Shown: positions 6,419 to 47,715 of the stretch, piece after piece
How positions within the stretch are numbered: position 1 is the stretch's first letter
Layout: each line of letters opens with the position of its first letter
Source: a virus
IMG/VR virus record: IMGVR_UViG_3300036771_000042
Span: 1 to 47,816 of that record
DNA length: 47,816 bases
Reading direction: 5' to 3' (one strand)
Program-made: the position numbers and the translations under genes
Notes under the pieces: model-generated
Told to the model about the DNA's origin: nothing
The model's input: the letters and a program-made list of their open reading frames with translations, nothing else
Database searches by the model: none

Positions 6419-6583
6419 ATGTCAGTTATCGGAAAGGTTTGGCTTGCCTTTACCCGTGAAGAACGGATGATCTGTTTGGAGTTTGCAGCTTATGAGAATG
6501 CCAAGCGCCAGGCTCGTATCCAAGAATTGAAATATACGACTCGAGTTAGAGCCAGTTTACGGCAGAAAGGAAGTTCAGTATGA
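6419..6583 (+). CDS. Small 54-residue protein coupled to AbrB-like gene
   Basis: A short gene preceded by AGAAAGGA with normal spacing. It reads MSVIGKVWLAFTREERM and continues as a charged, probably helical protein. Its stop overlaps the next start as ATGA (6580..6583), typical of translationally coupled phage genes. Position, ribosome site and coupling support a real gene. Function is unknown. Confidence 0.55.
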   Translation: MSVIGKVWLAFTREERMICLEFAAYENAKRQARIQELKYTTRVRASLRQKGSSV

Positions 6584-6837
6584 GCATGAAAGCTACGGGT
6601 ATTGTCCGCCGCATAGACGATCTGGGTCGTGTTGTTATTCCGAAAGAGCTTCGCAGGGTTCATGGTATTGAAGAAGGAGATACGCTGGAGTTTTTCGTGG
6701 ATGATGACAAGATCATCCTTCGCAGGTATCAACCAGGTTGCTTCTTCTGCGGAGAGGACGAAAGTCTGCAATCATTCCAAGGTAAACCGATTTGTATAAA
6801 GTGTATTACTAAGGCTTCCCAACTTACTAAAAACTAA
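6580..6837 (+). CDS. AbrB-family transition-state regulator with zinc ribbon
   Basis: An 85-residue protein. Residues 4-50 are a swapped-hairpin AbrB DNA-binding domain (ATGIVRRIDDLGRVVIPKEL, EEGDTLEFFVDDDKIILRRY). In place of the usual AbrB C-terminal multimerisation region it ends in two CXXC pairs (CFFC and CIKC), a probable zinc ribbon. Proteins of this build are common in Bacillus-group genomes and phages. It may interfere with host AbrB control or regulate phage genes. An internal ATG two codons later is also possible. Confidence 0.9.
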   Translation: MSMKATGIVRRIDDLGRVVIPKELRRVHGIEEGDTLEFFVDDDKIILRRYQPGCFFCGEDESLQSFQGKPICIKCITKASQLTKN

Positions 6838-6859: not shown

Positions 6860-7459
6860 ATGCAAAATATCATTCCGATCCAAATCACATTTCAAGCGGT
6901 AAACGCGACTGACATTAAAAACCTGGTGCACGATCTGGCGGGCACGTTGGGTAGTATGCCGAACGATTCCGTGCCGGCAGAGACTACAGTCTCCACTGTT
7001 CCTACACAACCTGCACCGACTCAGCCTTCTGCCCAGGCTCCAGTGCAACAACCACCGACCCAGCAGCTGCAATATGGCCAACAGCCGCCGCAATATGGGC
7101 AGCAACCTCAGTACGGTCAACAACCTGGCTACGGTCAGCAGCCGCAGTATGGCCAACAACCAGAACAACCACAATACGGACAGCAGCCGCCAGTGCAGGG
7201 CCAACCAGGTCAACAAGATCAGCAGCAGCAGCAGCAGTACAGCCAACAGCCACCGCAACAAGGAGGCGTCCCAACTACAACTCCTGGTTATACGCTGGAT
7301 CAACTTGGCGTAGCTGCTCAGCCGGTTATGGATGCAGGCAAAGGGCCGGAGCTGATCGGATGGTTGCAGCAACAAGGGGTAGGCGGTCTGACGCAGCTTG
7401 ATCCGAGTAAGTACGGCGAATTTGCAACGTTCCTCCGTAGCCTTGGGGGCCGCATCTAA
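6860..7459 (+). CDS. Replication-module protein with YGQQP low-complexity repeats
   Basis: A 199-residue protein of three parts: a short N-terminal domain (1-38), a disordered Pro/Gln/Tyr-rich region (about 45-140) with six YGQQP repeats and a run of Gln, and a folded C-terminal part (about 143-199) ending in YGEFATFLRSLGGRI. It lies one base ahead of the DUF2800 nuclease gene and two genes ahead of the DUF2815 protein, which carries the same repeats. The shared tail suggests the two proteins meet at the replication fork. Function is otherwise unknown. TAGGAGG precedes the ATG. Confidence 0.85.
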   Translation: MQNIIPIQITFQAVNATDIKNLVHDLAGTLGSMPNDSVPAETTVSTVPTQPAPTQPSAQAPVQQPPTQQLQYGQQPPQYGQQPQYGQQPGYGQQPQYGQQPEQPQYGQQPPVQGQPGQQDQQQQQQYSQQPPQQGGVPTTTPGYTLDQLGVAAQPVMDAGKGPELIGWLQQQGVGGLTQLDPSKYGEFATFLRSLGGRI

Positions 7460-8655
7460 TGGCGGAAATTGCACATGCAGAGCGGGCACATGCTTTGCTG
7501 TCGGCCAGTGGGGCCTCCCGCTGGCTGCAATGCACACCGAGTGCCAGGCTCGAAGCTACGCTGCCGGATACCGAGAGCGAGGCCGCCAAGCGCGGCACAC
7601 TCGCCCATGAGATCGCAGAGCTGAAGCTACAGAAATTGTTTTCTGGTCTGACGACTCGCAAGTACAATGCTGCGCTGAAGAAGTACAAAGCGGATGACCT
7701 GTATGAGCCAATCATGGAGGACCACACGAATGCCTATGTGGACTACATTCAGTCCATCGTGCATCAGTTTCCTTCGCCGCCATTTGTGGCCATCGAGCGC
7801 CGAGTGGATCTTACTGACTTTGTTCCGGAAAGCTTTGGGACCTCGGACTGCATCATCATCGGAAGTGGCCGGTTATATGTGATTGATTACAAGAACGGCC
7901 AAGGTGTTCCGGTATCGGCTGAAAACAATTCACAAATGAAGCTGTATGCGCTGGGTGCTTACAAGGCTTTCAGTCTTCTGTTTCCGATTGAGACTGTCCA
8001 TGTGGCCATCGTTCAACCCAAAGTGTGGAATGAACCTTCCGAATGGACGTTGTCTGCAGCAGAGCTGCTGTCCTGGGGTGAATCGATCAAGCCGATTGCT
8101 CAGCAAGCATTCGATGGCCAAGGTGAGTATGTTCCTGGGGATCACTGCAAATTTTGCCGTGCCAGTGCGACATGCCGGGCAAGAGTGACGCAGATCATGG
8201 AGGCAGGCTCCAAAGCACCACTGAAGCCGCCATTGCTCAGCTGGAATGAAGCTGCAGACGTACTGAAGCGAGCTGACGGGATTGTCAGCTGGTACTCCGA
8301 TCTGAAGAAGCTGGCCTTGGCTGAAGCACTGAAAGGGGGGATCGTTCCGGGCTGGAAAGCCGTAGAGGGTCGGGGCAGTCGTGACTATACGGATCTGGAT
8401 GCCGCATTTAAGCACCTGCAGGAAAAAGGTATTGAGGAAGCGATCCTGTATGATCGTAAACCGTTAACACCGCCACAGCTGGAGAAGGCACTGGGCAAAA
8501 AGGAATACCGCGAGCTACTGGAGGAGCCTGGCTTGGTCGTCAGCCGTTCCGGAGCACCAACACTAGTAGCAGATGATGATAAGCGTCCAGGTATCACCAA
8601 TCAGGTTAAGCCTGAAGACGTATTTGGACCAGCACCAGATGAACCACAAAACTAA
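7459..8655 (+). CDS. DUF2800 protein, RecB/Cas4-like PD-(D/E)XK nuclease
   Basis: A 398-residue protein. GTLAHEIAE near residue 50, GTSDCIIIG near 133 and VIDYKNGQG near 146 make up a PD-(D/E)XK nuclease core, with Asp then D-Y-K as metal and lysine ligands. An early Cys (RWLQC) and three later ones (CKFCRASATC) could hold an Fe-S cluster as in Cas4 and AddB. Such proteins sit with DUF2815 and a family A polymerase in many Firmicutes phages and probably act as exonucleases in replication or recombination. Its ATG overlaps the stop of the previous gene by one base. Confidence 0.88.
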   Translation: MAEIAHAERAHALLSASGASRWLQCTPSARLEATLPDTESEAAKRGTLAHEIAELKLQKLFSGLTTRKYNAALKKYKADDLYEPIMEDHTNAYVDYIQSIVHQFPSPPFVAIERRVDLTDFVPESFGTSDCIIIGSGRLYVIDYKNGQGVPVSAENNSQMKLYALGAYKAFSLLFPIETVHVAIVQPKVWNEPSEWTLSAAELLSWGESIKPIAQQAFDGQGEYVPGDHCKFCRASATCRARVTQIMEAGSKAPLKPPLLSWNEAADVLKRADGIVSWYSDLKKLALAEALKGGIVPGWKAVEGRGSRDYTDLDAAFKHLQEKGIEEAILYDRKPLTPPQLEKALGKKEYRELLEEPGLVVSRSGAPTLVADDDKRPGITNQVKPEDVFGPAPDEPQN

Positions 8656-8679
8656 TAATTGATAAGGGGATAAATCCAT

Positions 8680-9525
8680 ATGACAACAGAAACAGCAATT
8701 ACAACAGGTGAAGTAAGACTGAGCTTTGTAAACTTGTTCACACCACGTGCCAATCAACCAGGGCAGGAGCCGAAATACAGCACCACCATTCTGATTCCTA
8801 AATCCGATTTTGCCACAATGCAACGTATCAATGCCGCCATTGAAGCTGCATCACAAAAAGGCGTAGCCGGTGCATGGGGTGGTGCCCGTCCAGCACAACC
8901 TCGTAACCCTATTCACGATGGGGATGGCGCGCGTCCGAACGGTGAAGCATTTGGTCCGGAGTGCAAGGGGCATTGGGTTCTGACGGCCAGTAGCAAACAA
9001 CAACAGGCGGTTGTGGGTCCAGACATGGGACCAATCATTGACCAAACCCGTGTTTACTCCGGCGTATATGGCCGAGTGAATATTAATTTCTTCGCTTATA
9101 GCAACAGCGGTAACAAAGGTATCGGCGCAGGCCTTGGTCCGGTGCAGATCCTGCGGGATGGCGAAGCCTTGGGCGGACGGATCTCGGCTGAACAAGCCTT
9201 CGGTGGCAATGGTGGCGGTGTAGGTTTTGCGCCGGCACCAGCTCCGCAGGGCTATGATCAAATTCCACCGCAGCAGTACGGACAACAACCACCACAGCAG
9301 CCGCAGTATGGCCAACAGCCTCCAGTACAAGGTGGATATGGACAAGCACCACAACAACCGCGATACGGTCAACAGCCGCCAGCGCAGCCGGGCTATGGGC
9401 AAGCACCTCAGCAACCGCAGTACGGACAAGCTCCGCAACAAGGCTACGGACAGCAGCAACCACCGCAACAGCAGATCGATCCGATCACCGGCAAGCCTCT
9501 TGGTCGAGGAATTTACGGGATCTAA
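8680..9525 (+). CDS. DUF2815 ssDNA-binding-like protein with YGQ-repeat tail
   Basis: A 281-residue protein. The first 180 residues match the DUF2815 phage family (GEVRLSFVNLFTPR, EPKYSTTILIPKSD, RVYSGVYGRVNINFFAYS), which is thought to have a single-stranded DNA-binding, OB-like fold. The rest is a disordered tail with seven YGQQ/YGQA repeats, then IDPITGKPLGRGIYGI. The tail resembles the repeats of the protein encoded at 6860. It probably covers ssDNA at the phage fork; the tail would take the place of the flexible C-terminus of bacterial SSB. Confidence 0.88.
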   Translation: MTTETAITTGEVRLSFVNLFTPRANQPGQEPKYSTTILIPKSDFATMQRINAAIEAASQKGVAGAWGGARPAQPRNPIHDGDGARPNGEAFGPECKGHWVLTASSKQQQAVVGPDMGPIIDQTRVYSGVYGRVNINFFAYSNSGNKGIGAGLGPVQILRDGEALGGRISAEQAFGGNGGGVGFAPAPAPQGYDQIPPQQYGQQPPQQPQYGQQPPVQGGYGQAPQQPRYGQQPPAQPGYGQAPQQPQYGQAPQQGYGQQQPPQQQIDPITGKPLGRGIYGI

Positions 9526-9595: not shown

Positions 9596-11557
9596 ATGAC
9601 GTGGCACCTTTCCATCGATATAGAGACCTACAGCAGTATAGACATTAAGAAAGCAGGGTTGTACCGCTACGTTCAAAGTCCTGATTTTGAAATCCTTTTG
9701 TTCGCTTATTCCTGGAATAGCGGCCCGACGCGAATTGTTGATCTAGCTCAGGGTGAAGCCATTCCGGAAGAAGTTATCCGCGCTTTAAATGATAAAGAAG
9801 TCATCAAACACGCATATAACGCGGCTTTCGAGTGGTACTGTCTGAATAAATTCTGGCCATCACCCGTAGAGCATTGGCGCTGCACACAGATTCACGGCTT
9901 GTACTGTGGATACCCTGCAGGGCTTGGCAAGGTAGGAGAGGCGCTGGGACTTCCCCAGGACAAGAAGAAAATGGGTGTCGGTGGTGCACTGATTCGGACG
10001 TTCTGTATTCCGATCAAGAAGCCTGCCAAGTCAACTGGCTTCCGGAAGCGCACCCTGCCCCATCATGAGCCTGAGAAGTGGGAGCTATTCAAGCAGTACT
10101 GTGTGGGTGACGTTGTGGCAGAGGTGGAGATCCTTCGCCGGTTATCGGTATTCCCAGTACCGGATATGGAGTGGGAGCTCTGGTTCCTGGATCAACGAAT
10201 CAATGCCCGAGGGATCGCCTGTGACCTGCAGCTGGTCGAGGGGGCTTTGGCCTTAGATCAGCAGATTACGACAGAGCTGATGCAGGAAGCCATACAGCTC
10301 AGTGGCTTGGACAACCCCAAGTCGGTCCAGCAGCTTAAAAAGTGGCTTTCCAAAGAGATCGGGGAAGAGGTCGAGGATCTTAGAAAAGATACTGTTTCCG
10401 GACTGATCGACAACGTGGAAGATGGCAAAGCCAAGCGCGTCCTGGAGATCCGCAGGGAGTTGTCCAAGACCAGTACTAAAAAGTATGTGGCCATGGAGAC
10501 GGTAGCTTGTGAAGACGGACGGGTTCGGGGGCTCTTACAGTTTTACGGTGCGAACCGGACAGGACGTTGGGCTGGGCGATTGGTCCAGGTCCACAACCTA
10601 CCCAAGAACAAGATGGATACCCTCGAATATGCTAGGCAGCTGGTTCACGGACAGCAGGTGAATTTGCTGAAACTGATGTACGGAAACGTTCCGGATACGC
10701 TCAGTCAATTGATCCGGACAGCGTTTGTGGCTCCGGACGGGAAGAAGCTTCATATAGCAGACTTCTCAGCCATTGAAGCCCGGGTGATTGCCTGGCTTGC
10801 TGGAGAGCAATGGCGGCTGGACGTGTTCGCTACTCATGGCAAGATTTATGAAGCCTCAGCGTCGGCCATGTTCGGGATTCCGCTCGAACAGGTGGACAAG
10901 GATTTGCGACAACGGGGCAAGGTTTCTGAACTTGCTTTGGGTTATCAGGGGGCTTCCGGCGCACTTATTGCTATGGGTGCATTGGATATGGGACTTGCAG
11001 AGGACGAGCTGCCCGAGATTGTAACACGGTGGCGTAACGCCAATCGGCGCATTGTGGATCTGTGGTTTGCGTTTGAAAAGGCAGCACTTAGTGTCATGGA
11101 GACGGGTCAGCCTGTAGGTGTTCGGGGGATCATCTTCGCTCGGGAGAGCCATCACGGTAACGGCTTGGATTTCTTCACGGTTCAGCTGCCGTCCGGAAGA
11201 AAGTTGTATTACGTGGAGCCTCGTCTGGCTCAGAACGACTTTGGCAAACAGGCTTTGCACTACATGGGTCCGGATCAGAAGACCGGTAAGTGGTCGCTGA
11301 TAAGCACCTACGGCGGGAAGCTTGTCGAGAACATTGTTCAGGCGATTGCAAGGGACTGTCTGGCTGTTTCCCTTATCCGTGTGGAGCAAGCCGGTTATGA
11401 CACGGTTCTGCATGTACATGATGAAATTGGAATCGAATCAGCGCATCCGGAAGATCTGGAGAAGGTATTGGATCTGATGGCTGAACCGGTACCCTGGGCA
11501 CCTGGGCTGCCTCTGAGAGCAGCCGGGTTCACCACAGACTTTTACATGAAGGATTAA
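9596..11557 (+). CDS. Phage DNA polymerase, family A with 3'-5' exonuclease
   Basis: A 653-residue replicative polymerase. The exonuclease domain begins at once with Asp8 and Glu10 in SIDIET. The polymerase domain shows motif A (ADFSAIEARVIAWLAGE), motif B (RQRGKVSELALGYQG) and motif C (HVHDEIG) with the catalytic aspartates. No 5'-3' exonuclease domain is present, as usual for phage enzymes of this type. AGGAGG lies 11 bases before the ATG, a slightly long gap. Its stop overlaps the stop of the convergent gene on the other strand. Confidence 0.97.
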   Translation: MTWHLSIDIETYSSIDIKKAGLYRYVQSPDFEILLFAYSWNSGPTRIVDLAQGEAIPEEVIRALNDKEVIKHAYNAAFEWYCLNKFWPSPVEHWRCTQIHGLYCGYPAGLGKVGEALGLPQDKKKMGVGGALIRTFCIPIKKPAKSTGFRKRTLPHHEPEKWELFKQYCVGDVVAEVEILRRLSVFPVPDMEWELWFLDQRINARGIACDLQLVEGALALDQQITTELMQEAIQLSGLDNPKSVQQLKKWLSKEIGEEVEDLRKDTVSGLIDNVEDGKAKRVLEIRRELSKTSTKKYVAMETVACEDGRVRGLLQFYGANRTGRWAGRLVQVHNLPKNKMDTLEYARQLVHGQQVNLLKLMYGNVPDTLSQLIRTAFVAPDGKKLHIADFSAIEARVIAWLAGEQWRLDVFATHGKIYEASASAMFGIPLEQVDKDLRQRGKVSELALGYQGASGALIAMGALDMGLAEDELPEIVTRWRNANRRIVDLWFAFEKAALSVMETGQPVGVRGIIFARESHHGNGLDFFTVQLPSGRKLYYVEPRLAQNDFGKQALHYMGPDQKTGKWSLISTYGGKLVENIVQAIARDCLAVSLIRVEQAGYDTVLHVHDEIGIESAHPEDLEKVLDLMAEPVPWAPGLPLRAAGFTTDFYMKD

Positions 11558-12417
11558 TCTTTAAGGTTTTTCAAAATTCTTAATTTATCGTTTAGGTGCC
11601 TGGTTATGAACTTTGTGACCATATTTTCATTGAATGTATCAACACCCATATTTCTCAATTCTGCCCTAACAAAATTTGATAATTCGGGTAAATCAATTTG
11701 ATCAATTTGGTTGTAAGATAGGCCTTTTTTTTCAAAGTAAAGATTTATTGAAATATCAACCATTCTTTGTAAACGTGTTTGAGAATTAATTACTTCATCT
11801 GTCGCCATATTTTTTACCGGATTCATACTGGATTTGAGAAATGCCATTTCATTTTGTATTTCTTGTAGTGAGTTGATGATGTATTGATCTGTAGAAACAA
11901 TCTCTTCGTTCATTGAAGCTACTTGGATATTACCGAAACTTTTCAAGAAGGAAGATTTATTTCCATCCTGTTGAGTTTCCTCGTATGTAGCTTGTACTTT
12001 TTCAGCTAGAAGTTCTTTAAACTTTACAATTGATTTATATCGGAGATCTCTTGGATATTGAAGATGTTCAATTACTCCAGCATCAAATGTGTAGTCGGTT
12101 TTGTCATCTTTAATAATGATAGTGGGCTTGTCGAAAGCCAAACGCATCCCGAGTTCAAACATCACATTGGGGTTCTTGCAACTTACATCGCAAATGATGA
12201 TGTCAGACTTATATAACCCCTCAACTATACGTTTATGGATAAGACCAGAACTGTTTCCTTCACTGACAATCTTAGGTTCACTACTATAACCCGGCATGGA
12301 AGAAACAGATTCAGTAATAATTCGTTTAACGTCAAGCCAATGATCAGTTGAGCATCCATCAATAGGTGCAATAGGCATAACTAATCCAATGTTTAATAAT
12401 TTAATTTCTTCTGTCAT
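11554..12417 (-). CDS. TIR / deoxyribosyltransferase-like protein, candidate defence moron
   Basis: A 287-residue protein. Residues 5-130 are Rossmann-like: an N-terminal strand (IGLVMPIAPIDG), then SDIIICDVSCKNPNVMFELG with Glu88 in the NPNVMFELG motif shared by nucleoside 2-deoxyribosyltransferase and TIR-like enzymes. The C-terminal 150 residues are helical and unassigned. Proteins of this type cleave NAD or nucleosides or act as effectors in anti-phage systems. The gene is AT-rich, inserted backwards in the replication module and has its own promoter, as expected for a lysogenically expressed accessory gene. The exact family and activity are not established. Confidence 0.7.
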   Translation of the reverse strand: MTEEIKLLNIGLVMPIAPIDGCSTDHWLDVKRIITESVSSMPGYSSEPKIVSEGNSSGLIHKRIVEGLYKSDIIICDVSCKNPNVMFELGMRLAFDKPTIIIKDDKTDYTFDAGVIEHLQYPRDLRYKSIVKFKELLAEKVQATYEETQQDGNKSSFLKSFGNIQVASMNEEIVSTDQYIINSLQEIQNEMAFLKSSMNPVKNMATDEVINSQTRLQRMVDISINLYFEKKGLSYNQIDQIDLPELSNFVRAELRNMGVDTFNENMVTKFITRHLNDKLRILKNLKD

Positions 12418-12947: not shown

Positions 12948-15350
12948 ATGCAATTTGACAGACAACTAACTATTTCAAGCGCCGGGACCAGACACAGCAC
13001 AAACTGGCAGATGCAAACGGCCTATTGGTCGGAGATCGTCGAGCGTTTACGGACTGCTGTACGGGGTGCGGAAACGCTGGCGGAATACTTGCAGCTGCCT
13101 AAGAGCAAACAGGATGACCTGAAGGACGTTGGCGGCTTTGTCGGTGGCAGTCTGTCAGGCGGTCGCCGGAAAGCCAACGCGGTCATCGGCCGTGATCTGG
13201 TTACGCTTGACCTTGATAATATCCCAGCAGGCGGGACGGCGGATATCCTTCGTCGTCTGGATGCCCTGAGTTGCGGCTATGCCGTTTACAGTACGCGGAA
13301 GCATGAAGAGAACCGGCCGCGCCTTCGGGTTGTGGCGCCGCTGGACCGGATGGCCACAGCGGATGAGTATGAACCGATTGCCCGTAAGCTCGGGGAGATC
13401 ATCGGCATTGGGTTGTGTGACCCGACTACGTTCGAAGCTTCACGGCTCATGTATTGGCCAAGCTGCAGCGCAGACAGTCAGTATGTGTTCACGTTTGGGG
13501 ATAAGCCGTTTCTATCGGTAGATGGCCTGCTGGCCATGTATCCGGACTGGCGCAATGTGGCTTCGTGGCCACAGGTACCGGGTACCGGTCAGACTCATGT
13601 ACGCCTGGCAGCGAAGCAGGGAGATCCCACAGAGAAGCAGGGTATGGTTGGCGCGTTCTGTAAGGTCTACGACGTGCCGGCAGCCATTGATGCCTTCTTG
13701 CCTGGTGTCTATCTGAACACAGATGACGGCAGCGGCAGACTTACGTACGTAGGCGGTTCAACCACAGGCGGTGCGATCATTTATGACGATGGCCAGTTTC
13801 TATTCTCCCATCATGCTACGGATCCGACAGGTGGAAGGCTGGTAAACAGTTTTGACATGGTGCGGCTTCACAAATTCGGTGATCAGGACGATGAAGCGAA
13901 GCCTGGGACACCTACAAACAAGCTTCCGTCTTACACGGCCATGATGGACTTCGCTATGCGCCAGGAACCTGTGGCGGGGCTACTGATGCAAGAACGGCAC
14001 CAGAAGGCCACAGCAGCGTTTGCGGACTCTCCTGTGTTGCCAGTAGAACCAGAAGATATAGACTGGATGCGGCGGCTGGAGTTCAACAGTAACGGCGTGT
14101 ACCTGAAGACGGTGGATAACGTCCTGATCGTGCTGGAATTTGATCCGGCTTTAAAGGATAAGATCGCATTTGATGAATTCGCCAATCGGGGGCTGGTGCT
14201 TGGGGCGCTGCCTTGGGATGCCAGGGAGGAGCGTCGGCCATGGGCCAGTTCAGATGACGCAGGGATCTACCATTATATCGAAAAGGTGTACGGCATCGCG
14301 GTAGATGCCAAGATCAACAATGCTTTAACCCTGATCACACATAAGAAGCGGTTCAACGATGTGCGTCGGTACCTGGAAGGGCTGACGTGGGACGGTGTAC
14401 CGAGACTGGATACGTTGTTTACCGACTACCTGGGTGCAGAGGACAGCCTGTATACCCGTGCAGTGTCCCGTAAGTCCTTCACGGCTGCCGTGGCCAGAGC
14501 AATGGAACCCGGCGTCAAATGGGACTATATGCCGATTCTGGCGGGGCCCCAGGGGCTTGGTAAATCGACGTTTCTGCGGTACATGGGCAAGGATTGGTAT
14601 TCCGACAGCTTGACCACCTTCGAGGGCAAGGATGCCATGGAGCTGATCCAGGGTATATGGCTGAATGAGGTCGGGGAGCTGACGGGGATGAGTAAGTCGG
14701 AGAGTAACGCCGTTAAGCAGTTTTTGAGTCGGACGGAAGACATCTATCGTGAAGCTTATGGCAAGCGTACAATGCCGTATCCGCGGCGCTGCGTGTTTTT
14801 CGGAACCACCAATGACAGCGAGTTTCTACGGGATCGTACAGGCAATCGGCGGTTTTGGCCTATTGATGTAGGCATCGTGAAGCCGACAAAGAGCGTGTTT
14901 CAGGATCTGAAGGGTGAAGTGGATCAGATTTATGCGGAGGCTTTTGTCCGGTGGCAGCTGAATGAACCATTGTATCTGTCAGGCGAGATCGAGGACATGG
15001 CGAAGGAACGTCAGGAGGCCCACAGGGAGAGTAATGCAAAGGAAGGCATCATTCAAGCATTCGTGAATAGACCAGTTCCGGAAGATTGGTTAAAACGCGA
15101 TTTACCGACGAGAAGAATGTACTGGTCTGGTGAGTTTGGGAAGCCCCAGGAAGGCGAGGGAGGCCCCCGGGACCGAATATGTGCCGCTGAAATTTGGTGC
15201 GAATGCTTCAATTCGGACATTAAGTTTATGAAGCAAGCAGACACGAGAGAGATTAACGGCATTTTATCCTGCATACCAGGATGGGAGGAGTATCGCGGAC
15301 GATTCGGCCCATACGAAACCCAGCGCGGCTATCGTCGCAAAGATTGTTGA
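12948..15350 (+). CDS. Primase-helicase of the VapE type
   Basis: An 800-residue replication initiator. The N-terminal part (about 1-200) resembles archaeo-eukaryotic primases, with DLVTLDLDN near residue 85 as the acidic site. From about residue 400 it is a virulence-associated E (D5/SF3-like) ATPase: Walker A AGPQGLGKST near 530, Walker B IWLNEVGEL, and the sensor block GTTNDSEFLRDRTGNRRFWP near 620. Such proteins open and prime the phage origin. An iteron array begins at its stop codon. AGGAGG precedes the ATG. Confidence 0.94.
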   Translation: MQFDRQLTISSAGTRHSTNWQMQTAYWSEIVERLRTAVRGAETLAEYLQLPKSKQDDLKDVGGFVGGSLSGGRRKANAVIGRDLVTLDLDNIPAGGTADILRRLDALSCGYAVYSTRKHEENRPRLRVVAPLDRMATADEYEPIARKLGEIIGIGLCDPTTFEASRLMYWPSCSADSQYVFTFGDKPFLSVDGLLAMYPDWRNVASWPQVPGTGQTHVRLAAKQGDPTEKQGMVGAFCKVYDVPAAIDAFLPGVYLNTDDGSGRLTYVGGSTTGGAIIYDDGQFLFSHHATDPTGGRLVNSFDMVRLHKFGDQDDEAKPGTPTNKLPSYTAMMDFAMRQEPVAGLLMQERHQKATAAFADSPVLPVEPEDIDWMRRLEFNSNGVYLKTVDNVLIVLEFDPALKDKIAFDEFANRGLVLGALPWDAREERRPWASSDDAGIYHYIEKVYGIAVDAKINNALTLITHKKRFNDVRRYLEGLTWDGVPRLDTLFTDYLGAEDSLYTRAVSRKSFTAAVARAMEPGVKWDYMPILAGPQGLGKSTFLRYMGKDWYSDSLTTFEGKDAMELIQGIWLNEVGELTGMSKSESNAVKQFLSRTEDIYREAYGKRTMPYPRRCVFFGTTNDSEFLRDRTGNRRFWPIDVGIVKPTKSVFQDLKGEVDQIYAEAFVRWQLNEPLYLSGEIEDMAKERQEAHRESNAKEGIIQAFVNRPVPEDWLKRDLPTRRMYWSGEFGKPQEGEGGPRDRICAAEIWCECFNSDIKFMKQADTREINGILSCIPGWEEYRGRFGPYETQRGYRRKDC

Positions 15351-15623: not shown

Positions 15624-15896
15624 ATGAGAGAGAGCCAAGTTGAATCTTATTTGCGGCAGAAGGTGAAAGATATTGGCGGCATCGCCTATAAATTTGTATC
15701 GCCTGGTAACTCAGGAGTGCCTGACCGGATGGTACTGCTTCCGGAAGGACGAACCGTGTTTGTGGAGCTGAAGGCCCCAGGTAAGAAACCCACCAAGCTG
15801 CAGCTGGTGCAGCATAAGCGGATGCAGGCTTTGGGCCATGAGGTGCGGGTGATCGACAGCAGAGAGCAGGTGGATGCATGGCTGCAGGAGCTTTGA
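15624..15896 (+). CDS. VRR-NUC domain nuclease
   Basis: A 90-residue stand-alone VRR-NUC (PD-(D/E)XK) nuclease. Asp34 in GVPDRM and Glu48/Lys50 in FVELKAPG form the active site, and QLVQHKRMQALGHEVRVI is the characteristic C-terminal part. The ATG at 15624 is used because GGAGG at 15612 serves as its ribosome site; an in-frame ATG at 15609 would include that site. It overlaps the helicase start by 19 bases. In phages VRR-NUC often travels with an SNF2 helicase and probably cuts branched or flapped DNA. Confidence 0.93.
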   Translation: MRESQVESYLRQKVKDIGGIAYKFVSPGNSGVPDRMVLLPEGRTVFVELKAPGKKPTKLQLVQHKRMQALGHEVRVIDSREQVDAWLQEL

Positions 15897-17266
15897 GCAT
15901 CGAGCGTAAGAAGTTTGTCCCGCATGATTATCAGCGGTACTGCATTAACAGGTTATTGACGGATGACGCTCTTGGGCTGTTTCTGGATCTCGGATTGGGA
16001 AAAACCGTTATTACGCTGACGGCGGTAAATGACTTGAAATACAACCGGTTCACGGTTAGCCGGACCTTAGTCATTGCCCCCAAGAAGGTGGCGGAGGCTA
16101 CCTGGGGAAACGAAGCAGCCAAGTGGCAGCATCTGAAGCATATGCGGATCATCACCGTTTTGGGTACCGCACAGCAGCGGATCAAGTCCCTGAATACGCC
16201 AGGAGACGTATGGGTCATCAATCGGGATAACGTGGCTTGGCTTGTGGAGTATTACCGGAATGCTTGGCCCTTTGACATGGTGGTACTGGACGAGCTGTCC
16301 AGTTTCAAGAATCACCAGGCGAAGCGATTCAAAGTGCTGACCTGGGTCCGGCCACACATCAAGCGGATCGTGGGCCTGACCGGTACCCCAGCACCGAATG
16401 GGCTGCTTGACCTGTGGGCCCAGGTGAATCTACTGGATCAGGGGAAACGCCTAGAGAAGAACATCACCGGGTACCGGGTGAAGTATTTTGAGAAGAACTA
16501 TAACGGCCATGGCTACACCGCGAAGCCCGGTGCGGATGATGTGATTCAGCGACAGATTGCTGATCTATGTATCAGCATGAAGGCCGAGGATTACCTGGAG
16601 CTACCTGATAGTATCATGAACGTCATTCCCGTTGTCCTGGATGCGAAAGCCCAGAAGCAATACAACCAGCTGGAGAAGGAGTTGCTTCTGGAGATCGATG
16701 ACGGAACGGAGATTACGGCCACCAGTGCGGCGGTTCTATCGGGTAAACTGCTGCAGCTGTGTAACGGTGCCTTGTACGATGAGAACAGACAGGTGTTCGA
16801 GATCCACGATAACAAACTGGAAGCATTCATGGAGCTGGTGGAACAACTGAACGGGAAATCGGCTTTGGTGTTCTACAGCTTCCAGCATGACCTGACTCGG
16901 ATCAAGAAAGCTTTGGAGAAAACAAGCTTACGGATCCGGGAGCTGAAGACCCCGCAGGATCAACTGGATTGGAATGCCGGCAAGGTGGATATCCTGCTTG
17001 CCCATCCAGCCAGTGCCGCATATGGCCTTAACCTGCAGGACGGAGGAAACCACGTGGTGTGGTTTGGACTGAACTGGAGCCTGGAACTGTACCAGCAAGC
17101 GAATGGCCGTCTTCACCGGCAAGGTCAGAAACAGAAGGTTATCTTGCATCACCTGGTGGTTCAAGGTGGGGCTGACGAGGACGTGATGAAAGCCCTGGAA
17201 GGTAAGGCTGCCACACAGGACAAGCTTCTGGACGCACTGAAAGCACGGATTGAGCGGATCAAATAG
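15878..17266 (+). CDS. SNF2-family DEAD-like helicase/translocase
   Basis: A 462-residue SF2 protein. Walker A (LDLGLGKT, residues 36-43), motif II (DELSS, 138-142) and motif III (GLTGTPAP, 166-173) are clear. The C-terminal half carries motifs V and VI (YGLNLQDGG, NGRLHRQGQ). No accessory DNA-binding domain is seen, usual for phage members. It lies in an overlapping pair with the VRR-NUC gene, so the two may act together in fork remodelling or recombination. Confidence 0.94.
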   Translation: MAAGALSIERKKFVPHDYQRYCINRLLTDDALGLFLDLGLGKTVITLTAVNDLKYNRFTVSRTLVIAPKKVAEATWGNEAAKWQHLKHMRIITVLGTAQQRIKSLNTPGDVWVINRDNVAWLVEYYRNAWPFDMVVLDELSSFKNHQAKRFKVLTWVRPHIKRIVGLTGTPAPNGLLDLWAQVNLLDQGKRLEKNITGYRVKYFEKNYNGHGYTAKPGADDVIQRQIADLCISMKAEDYLELPDSIMNVIPVVLDAKAQKQYNQLEKELLLEIDDGTEITATSAAVLSGKLLQLCNGALYDENRQVFEIHDNKLEAFMELVEQLNGKSALVFYSFQHDLTRIKKALEKTSLRIRELKTPQDQLDWNAGKVDILLAHPASAAYGLNLQDGGNHVVWFGLNWSLELYQQANGRLHRQGQKQKVILHHLVVQGGADEDVMKALEGKAATQDKLLDALKARIERIK

Positions 17267-44536: not shown

Positions 44537-45208
44537 TTAACCTACTTCATTAATTAAACCCTCATTGTTATTCCGCACATTGCCGACTTCCTTCGGTACC
44601 TCGTATGCTCTCATTTCAGAAGCTTGATATGGCTTGAGCAAGCCGAGCAACGATTGAACATCATCATTATCTCTCCCAAGCCATTTACCCTCATCCTCGG
44701 GGCGTAGAATAACCGGCATGCGGTTGTGGATGTCTTCCATAAGACTATTTGGTTCAGTGGTGATAATTGTGCATGTGCTAAGCTTATTCCCATCTGGATC
44801 TGTCCAGGTGTCGTACAGGCCAGCCAATGAAAAGATGCTGTCGTCCTTCATCAGAATACGCATAGGCTGTTTGTTCGATCCATCTTTACGCCATTCATAA
44901 AATCCATTCGTCGGTATAATACAGCGCTTGGAACTAATCAGACGTTTAAAGGCTGGCTTTTCCGCAATCGTTTCTGCGCGAGCATTAATCATCTTATTAC
45001 CAATCTTTTCGTCCTTGGCCCAAGTAGGGACCAGACCCCATCGGAGCGAACCCAATCTATTTCCGTCTTTGCTCCCTATAATGGTGGGAATGTATTGCAT
45101 AGGTGCAGCGTTATAGTTGGGGCGATATTCGAGTCCATCAGCAATGGAAGCATAGTAGCGATCCAAGATAGCGTCTATGGGGTCAGTGATTGTAAATCTT
45201 CCGCACAT
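44537..45208 (-). CDS. yedK: SRAP domain protein (HMCES/YedK family)
   Basis: A 223-residue protein with the catalytic Cys2 exposed after Met removal (MCGRFTITDP). YNAAPMQYIPTI, NARAETIAEKPAFKRLI, NGFYEWRKDG and EDIHNRMPVIL are the SRAP landmarks (Asn, Glu in GFYEW, His in HNRMP). SRAP proteins form a covalent bond with abasic sites in single-stranded DNA and shield them. The ATG at 45208 is fixed by the need for Cys2 and by GGAGGTG upstream. It follows the ligase by 33 bases, one repair operon. Confidence 0.95.
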   Translation of the reverse strand: MCGRFTITDPIDAILDRYYASIADGLEYRPNYNAAPMQYIPTIIGSKDGNRLGSLRWGLVPTWAKDEKIGNKMINARAETIAEKPAFKRLISSKRCIIPTNGFYEWRKDGSNKQPMRILMKDDSIFSLAGLYDTWTDPDGNKLSTCTIITTEPNSLMEDIHNRMPVILRPEDEGKWLGRDNDDVQSLLGLLKPYQASEMRAYEVPKEVGNVRNNNEGLINEVG

Positions 45209-45241
45209 AAAAAGCACCTCCTGGTTGTTCTTAATATATAA

Positions 45242-46099
45242 TCACACGATAAATTGATCAAACACGGGTATACGTAGCAAACCAGATTTGGTCCAGTTGC
45301 GCATTTTTACTCTGGCCTGAATTCGGGGCTCAAGGTAAACATTGTTTTTGTCCTCACCAGTCACGATCTGCTGGCACACTCCACGAAACGCCTGCTTATG
45401 TTTTGGACTCGGGCCGTGTTCGATGATCCCTGCCAGGCGCAGCTTGCCAAATGTATCCGGGACAGCAACCAGCCATCCGAATTCAGCTTTTCGGTACCCA
45501 GTGATATAAACATCGGCGTATGACCAGTTGATTACCTTCTGCCAGTCTTTGGAACGCCTGCTGACGTAATGACTATCCTTACGCTTGCCGACTACACCTT
45601 CCATACCCATGGCTTCAATCTGAGCGAATAGATCCTCTCCAGCGCCTTCTATATGGGGCACAACTCCAAAGTTAGAGGAAGGAAGAGATAGACTGTGTAG
45701 GATCTTCTTGCGTTCCATAAGAGGTAGCATACGTAGATCCCGTCCTTGGTAGAAAAGAATATCAAATATAGCGAATGTGGCAGGCAGTTTATGAGTGAAC
45801 TGCGTTATCTTGCTGGCCTGCTTGGTGCTAAATCTACTCATGACGGCTTCGAAGTCGTTAAGCCCTGTCTCTGGATCGGTGCAAGCAACCTCGCCGTCCA
45901 GGATAATATCAGAGTCAAACGGCAGAAGTAATTCAGGGTACTGACGAGTACAATCGTTATTGTGACGTGTGTATAACCGGACATTGCCGGACTGTTGCGA
46001 ATATATCAACCGGTGACCGTCAACTTTAGGTTCATATATAAAATTCGAGTGACTAAATGGACCCGGTGCTGTTGCAAGTAACATTGGGCTTATAAACAT
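45242..46099 (-). CDS. ATP-dependent DNA ligase (LigD ligase-domain type)
   Basis: A 285-residue ligase. The nucleotidyltransferase domain has the adenylated Lys25 in YEPKVDGHRL, then ILDGEVAC, FAIFDILFYQG, MEGVVGKRKDSHY and DWQKVINW (motifs III to V). The last 90 residues are the OB domain. It corresponds to the stand-alone ligase of bacterial end-joining, without primase or nuclease domains. With the SRAP gene it forms a leftward repair unit that may mend damaged phage or host DNA. No Ku gene is visible in the window. Confidence 0.94.
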   Translation of the reverse strand: MFISPMLLATAPGPFSHSNFIYEPKVDGHRLIYSQQSGNVRLYTRHNNDCTRQYPELLLPFDSDIILDGEVACTDPETGLNDFEAVMSRFSTKQASKITQFTHKLPATFAIFDILFYQGRDLRMLPLMERKKILHSLSLPSSNFGVVPHIEGAGEDLFAQIEAMGMEGVVGKRKDSHYVSRRSKDWQKVINWSYADVYITGYRKAEFGWLVAVPDTFGKLRLAGIIEHGPSPKHKQAFRGVCQQIVTGEDKNNVYLEPRIQARVKMRNWTKSGLLRIPVFDQFIV

Positions 46100-47689: not shown

Positions 47690-47715
47690 TCGAAATGGAA
47701 GGCAGCATCGGTTAA
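47690..47715 (+). other. attR: attR core (26-bp direct repeat)
   Basis: An exact copy of the last 26 bases of sufB, ending in its TAA. Host sequence resumes at 47716. Confidence 0.95.

Follow-up and report, generated by a model that had tools for sequence, protein, structure and literature searches.

The single-stranded DNA-binding protein (SSB) in the replication module of a Paenibacillus prophage, here termed P3, ends in a neutral C-terminal tip that is conserved across a large lineage of relatives, and a conserved, unnamed gene of the same module, that for P1, tracks the type of the tip. This is a more general and more unexpected result than the pair of YGQ-repeat stretches in the two proteins, to which a preliminary description of this DNA had drawn attention. 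As a tentative reading, with a probability of about 0.4, we propose that P1 is a dedicated partner of the SSB that reads the SSB tip, and that the low-complexity linkers of the two proteins are matched flexible spacers. The proposal draws on the occurrence of P1 orthologues upstream of the DUF2800 nuclease gene, co-variation of the P1 linker with the SSB tail, concordance of tip and P1-domain types, divergence of the P1 domain where the tip has switched within a lineage, and constraint on the P3 tail.

The prophage and its replication module

The window, by which we mean the whole analysed stretch of 47,816 bases from the record IMGVR_UViG_3300036771_000042, is a Paenibacillus prophage integrated at the 3' end of sufB. 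An identical 26-base direct repeat, TCGAAATGGAAGGCAGCATCGGTTAA, lies at 1444-1469 and 47690-47715 and spans the sufB 3' end with its stop codon; it is probably the attachment core, the insertion restoring the end of sufB. The replication module comprises four consecutive forward-strand genes, namely P1 (6860-7459; 199 aa, function unassigned), a DUF2800 PD-(D/E)XK nuclease of the exonuclease family (7459-8655; Pfam E=4.5e-127), P3 (8680-9525; 281 aa) and a family A DNA polymerase, PolA (9596-11557), such that P1 and P3 do flank a nuclease gene as previously described. The stop codon of P1 overlaps the start of the nuclease gene (TAATG). Further along the same strand are a VapE-type primase/helicase (12948-15350) and an SNF2-type helicase (15878-17266). 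Passages of PMC8093625 describe duf2800-gp2.5-polA as a module, and those passages make no mention of the gene preceding duf2800.

Directly upstream of P1 is a gene for an AbrB/MazE-like protein whose C-terminal part contains Cys (6580-6837, forward strand), and AbrB/MazE-like genes are also seen upstream of P1 in several relatives, such as loci L012, L023 and L028 and the phages Pd_22F and FutureBee. An antisense gene within the module (11554-12417, reverse strand) weakly matches the nucleoside 2-deoxyribosyltransferase model of Pfam, below cut-off, and, also weakly, the TIR effector model of PADLOC; it is possibly a cargo or defence gene. Close to the right end of the prophage lie adjoining genes for an SRAP peptidase and an ATP-dependent DNA ligase (44537-46099, reverse strand).

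An OB-fold SSB with a neutral tip

The core of P3 (aa 1-172; 8680-9195) matches PF10991 over aa 6-175 (E=3.4e-61) and is modelled with a pLDDT of about 96 up to aa 160 as an OB-fold with a long capping helix (44-63), which recovers 4jg2, 4klk, 5odl and 1je5 in Foldseek searches (E 1.8e-17 to 3.1e-7). By core homology P3 is a DUF2815/Enc34-type (T7 gp2.5-like) SSB with predicted ssDNA binding, its tail being a lineage variant. With Enc34 ORF6/DUF2815 and the T7 gp2.5 group it shares the OB-fold core, the duf2800-gp2.5-polA gene order and an unstructured C-terminal segment (PMC5686142; passages of PMC8093625). However, that segment is a long acidic tail in the Enc34/T7 gp2.5 group (PMC5686142), whereas in P3 it is a neutral low-complexity tail (aa 173-265; 9196-9474; pLDDT about 42 over most of it) that ends in DPITGKPLGRGIYGI. 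The conserved tip IDPITGKPLGRGIYGI (aa 266-281; 9475-9522; C-terminal peptide QIDPITGKPLGRGIYGI) bears the motif DPITGKP, or DPITGxP in more general form. According to PMC5686142, every prokaryotic or phage SSB characteristically has an acidic tail, a statement which the neutral PITG tip of the P3 lineage contradicts. In an alignment of 81 SSBs, P268, T270, G271 and P273 of the tip are each at least 90% conserved, as against an unconserved tail, and among 139 relatives the tip is of the PITG type in 121 and acidic in 17. Escherichia coli SSB has the same overall architecture of OB-fold, disordered linker and conserved tip, but it belongs to another OB-fold family, and P3 differs from it in its neutral PITG, rather than acidic, tip and in the tyrosines of its tail.

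Two variants of the C-terminus were also observed. In L060 the DUF2815 protein ends in repeated PITG-like units (TYPLTG, TYPITG, NPITG), as though the tip motif had been duplicated. In the Pasteurella phage locus L274 the SSB has an uncharged Ala/Pro/Gln tail with neither PITG nor an acidic tip, and the P1-like protein beside it has an Ala/Pro/Gln-rich linker.

P1 and its family

In the AlphaFold model of P1 a short helix at the N-terminus is followed by a disordered linker and then by a confidently predicted C-terminal domain of three helices (aa 145-199, pLDDT 91-95). The linker (aa ~36-140; 6965-7279; pLDDT 47-59) contains 39 Q, 21 P, 7 Y and 11 G among its 105 residues, whereas the conserved part of the family is the C-terminal domain (aa 144-199; 7289-7456). 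The Tyr/Gln-rich stretches of both proteins had been described as tails; that of P1 is instead an internal linker before a helical domain, and that of P3, a tail in position, is followed by the conserved tip. Given this anatomy and conservation, both are better seen as linkers leading to conserved modules.

P1 lies upstream of DUF2800 and has a full-length profile match to phrog_18562 (E=1.6e-19), with a further match to phrog_22695; its orthologues paired with acidic-tip SSBs belong to phrog_408 or phrog_3709. We found no description of these four families in the literature, nor any literature on DPITG tips or on condensates of gp2.5-type proteins, and P1 differs from these families in its YGQQP linker. 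Pfam and NCBIfam gave no match to P1 above cut-off, and no convincing solved relative emerged from a PDB sequence search (best E=0.057, within the linker) or from a structure search with the fold (best E=6.1). Matches in a viral library were mostly to uncharacterised phage proteins.

Scanning contigs of viruses and genomes, together with annotated phages, yielded 139 distinct loci for analysis, with YGQ tails over-sampled in the contig scans, since two of the six peptide patterns used there were derived from the YGQ tail. Practically every complete locus, and almost every Gram-positive locus examined, has a P1 orthologue directly upstream of DUF2800, as do phages of Streptococcus, Staphylococcus, Corynebacterium, Gardnerella and Fusobacterium; the orthologue was unrecognised in the Pseudomonas PaMx74 locus and doubtful in Salmonella and Bacteroides loci. 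The overlap of its stop codon with the nuclease start recurs widely (105 of 127 loci).

Tip type and P1 domain type change together

The module occurs in two variants, one combining a neutral PITG tip with a P1 domain of type A and the other an acidic tip with type B, the two domain types being homologous (hhalign P=96.7%, E=3e-10). Among 96 further loci the PITG tip accompanied type A in 26 of 26 cases and the acidic tip type B in 61 of 61, giving 87 concordant loci and none discordant; of the other nine, six had no recognised P1 and three had tips of other kinds. The P1 linkers of acid-tip loci are E/K-rich, with a mean charged fraction of 0.40 versus 0.08. The concordance of tip and domain mostly reflects a single deep phylogenetic split.

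Two acid-tip groups, L058/L078 and L181/L189, are nested inside the PITG lineage. Their P1 domains show excess divergence, ranking 3, 2, 1 and 8 of 125 leaves, and neither the SSB core nor the nuclease is unusually diverged; the core in L058/L078 is in fact over-conserved relative to expectation (z +0.91 and +0.67). In these nested loci the P1 domain derives from type A and is not of type B, and a diverged P1 domain is also seen in L086, L191 and L075 of the PITG sister group to L181/L189. Within the PITG lineage, sub-variants of the tip (D versus N/H; extended versus short) track columns of the P1 domain no better than those of PolA or the nuclease, and the charges of tip and P1 domain showed no complementarity (PIC r=-0.16, p=0.12).

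These switches bear on two other possible targets of the tip. It might bind PolA or the primase-helicase of the phage, in the manner of the T7 gp2.5 tail (established biology, cited in PMC5686142), with P1 co-varying through co-evolution of the module as a whole. The over-divergence of PolA in L058/L078 agrees with this, but in L181/L189 it is the P1 domain that has diverged and not PolA (z -0.29 and -0.02), and we hold this alternative to be unlikely. Alternatively, the tip could fold back on its own or a neighbouring OB-fold, like the acidic tails of T7 gp2.5 and Enc34, and set ssDNA affinity or dimerisation, with P1 unrelated to it. In the AlphaFold model of the SSB monomer, confidence rises to 67-72 at aa 261-280, compared with about 42 in the tail, and residues 266 and 273 are assigned to strands; in the Enc34 crystal the C-terminus of one molecule packs against a neighbour (PMC5686142). 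The raised confidence fits docking of the tip on its own core, which speaks against recognition by P1, or a local hairpin formed by the strand residues. Moreover, a neutral tip would be unable to mimic DNA electrostatically, and the core was over-conserved when the tip of L058/L078 became acidic; such fold-back appears improbable to us. On balance, the nested switches favour P1 over the SSB core or PolA as the putative partner of the tip, on the strength of two events, in one of which the divergence is common to the PITG sister group.

Age and constraint of the YGQ repeats

As earlier reported, P1 contains six YGQQP units (at aa 72, 79, 85, 91, 97 and 106) and P3 seven YGQ units (three YGQQP, three YGQAP and one YGQQQ). 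These counts are far above the 0.27 and 0.52 YGQ expected when each stretch's own residues were shuffled 20,000 times, the maximum being 4. The 12 YGQ[QA]P units differ from each other by 0.93 per synonymous site, that is, they are saturated, which indicates that the repeats are old and rules out recent DNA slippage as their origin. Gene conversion between the repeats of P1 and P3 is likewise ruled out by this saturation and by the shortness of the shared patches, mostly of 73-86% identity.

As the units were picked by motif, the low nonsynonymous figure among them is circular, and comparison of orthologues is the unbiased measure. When close relatives are compared, most changes in the P3 tail fall at synonymous sites (mostly pS 0.27-0.6 and pN 0.005-0.07; for the window versus L090, pS 0.58 and pN 0.022), with constraint near that of the folded core; repeat alignment can understate pN, but no gaps are needed to align the P3 tail of the window with those of L009, L012 and L017. 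By this measure the protein sequence of the P3 tail is strongly constrained among these relatives, and that of the P1 linker is held somewhat less tightly, with pN 0.04-0.15 at pS 0.3-0.55.

Co-variation of linkers and the question of co-assembly

We compared the P1 linker with the P3 tail by independent contrasts on a tree of the SSB core plus nuclease, with linker borders set by a simple rule. Twelve features were tested, and across all loci the single-residue classes that clearly survived multiple-testing correction were limited to charge (r=0.45, p=3e-8), Q (r=0.35, p=2.5e-5) and N (r=0.32); Y was weak (r=0.20), and G and A were non-significant after correction. In the PITG-lineage subset Q (r=0.35) and N (r=0.31, p=0.005) co-varied, Y was concordant in 58 of 82 contrasts (p=2e-4), and the combined Y+G+Q signal persisted in PITG-tip loci. 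Control contrasts, in which Q, Y and N were set against the P1 C-terminal domain, nuclease, PolA and SSB core, were non-significant, the controls being other parts of the same module. Co-variation beyond phylogeny is compatible with a functional link between P1 and the SSB.

It is nevertheless conceivable, if rather doubtful, that the linkers are passive spacers whose likeness stems from shared mutational or host compositional bias. The A and P content of both linkers does track locus GC, and in other relatives the same position is filled by linkers of unrelated composition. Set against this are the absence of the Q, Y and N co-variation from the control segments and the protein-level conservation of the P3 tail in the face of synonymous change.

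The preliminary description took the matched stretches to suggest co-assembly. In such a scheme mutual adhesion of the Tyr/Gln repeats of P1 and the SSB would give rise to a condensate for phage replication, with minor roles for the tip and the P1 domain. The matching repeats, the compositional co-variation and the constraint on the P3 tail are in its favour, and the disordered linker of E. coli SSB, which forms condensates, is required for their formation (PMC10906006). However, two or more YGQ are found in both proteins at only seven of the 139 loci (the window, L009, L010, L011, L012, L017 and L090), all in one Paenibacillus clade, and a YGQ-rich SSB tail is paired with a P1 linker lacking YGQ at 30. 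This repeat count, which had been proposed as a check, indicates that the module can do without matched Tyr tails. The linkers of other relatives are Ala/Pro/Thr-rich or charged.

The suggested likeness to FUS is superficial, being a resemblance in Tyr, Gly and Gln repeats with no homology. FUS prion-like domains are Pro-poor, with more Tyr and more Arg; both phage stretches are about 20% Pro and contain 7-8 Tyr in roughly 100 aa and no more than one Arg, a composition unlike that of FUS-type sticker systems. As a general function, co-assembly through matched Tyr tails is untenable, and as the principal explanation it has a low probability; in the one clade it is possible, as are condensates of P1 and P3. 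What extends beyond the YGQ pair is a wider pattern, in which the conserved parts are the C-terminal domain of P1 and the tip of the SSB.

A possible adaptor for the SSB tip

We envisage P1 as a small dedicated partner of the gp2.5-like SSB, which would be made together with the DUF2800 exonuclease. The helical domain at the C-terminus of P1 would most likely read the SSB tip, of the PITG type here and acidic in the sister lineage, with the low-complexity linkers on P1 and the SSB as flexible spacers whose chemistry is kept compatible. P1, and perhaps the nuclease through P1, may thereby gather on SSB-coated ssDNA. In the Paenibacillus clade both linkers turned Tyr/Gln-rich, probably adding weak cohesion that could favour condensates. 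In weighing recognition of the tip by P1 we counted against it the deep split behind the concordance, the restriction to two nested switches, the A-derived domain in the nested cases and the want of charge complementarity. A fuller scenario strikes us as questionable, in which a widespread lineage of mainly Bacillota phages replaced the acidic T7-type SSB tip with neutral DPITGxP read by P1 as an adaptor, the linkers co-evolving and the Tyr/Gln repeats of Paenibacillus phages co-condensing on ssDNA.

SSBs recruit their partners through the C-terminal tip, and published descriptions make that tip acidic in every SSB of phages and bacteria. The conservation of a neutral tip across a large lineage, together with a neighbouring gene that tracks tip type, would amount to a new and directly testable recruitment code. 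It offers a candidate function for the common phage proteins of phrog_18562, phrog_22695 and phrog_408, and the paired linkers may provide a natural series in which to test how the chemistry of disordered regions co-evolves between partners.
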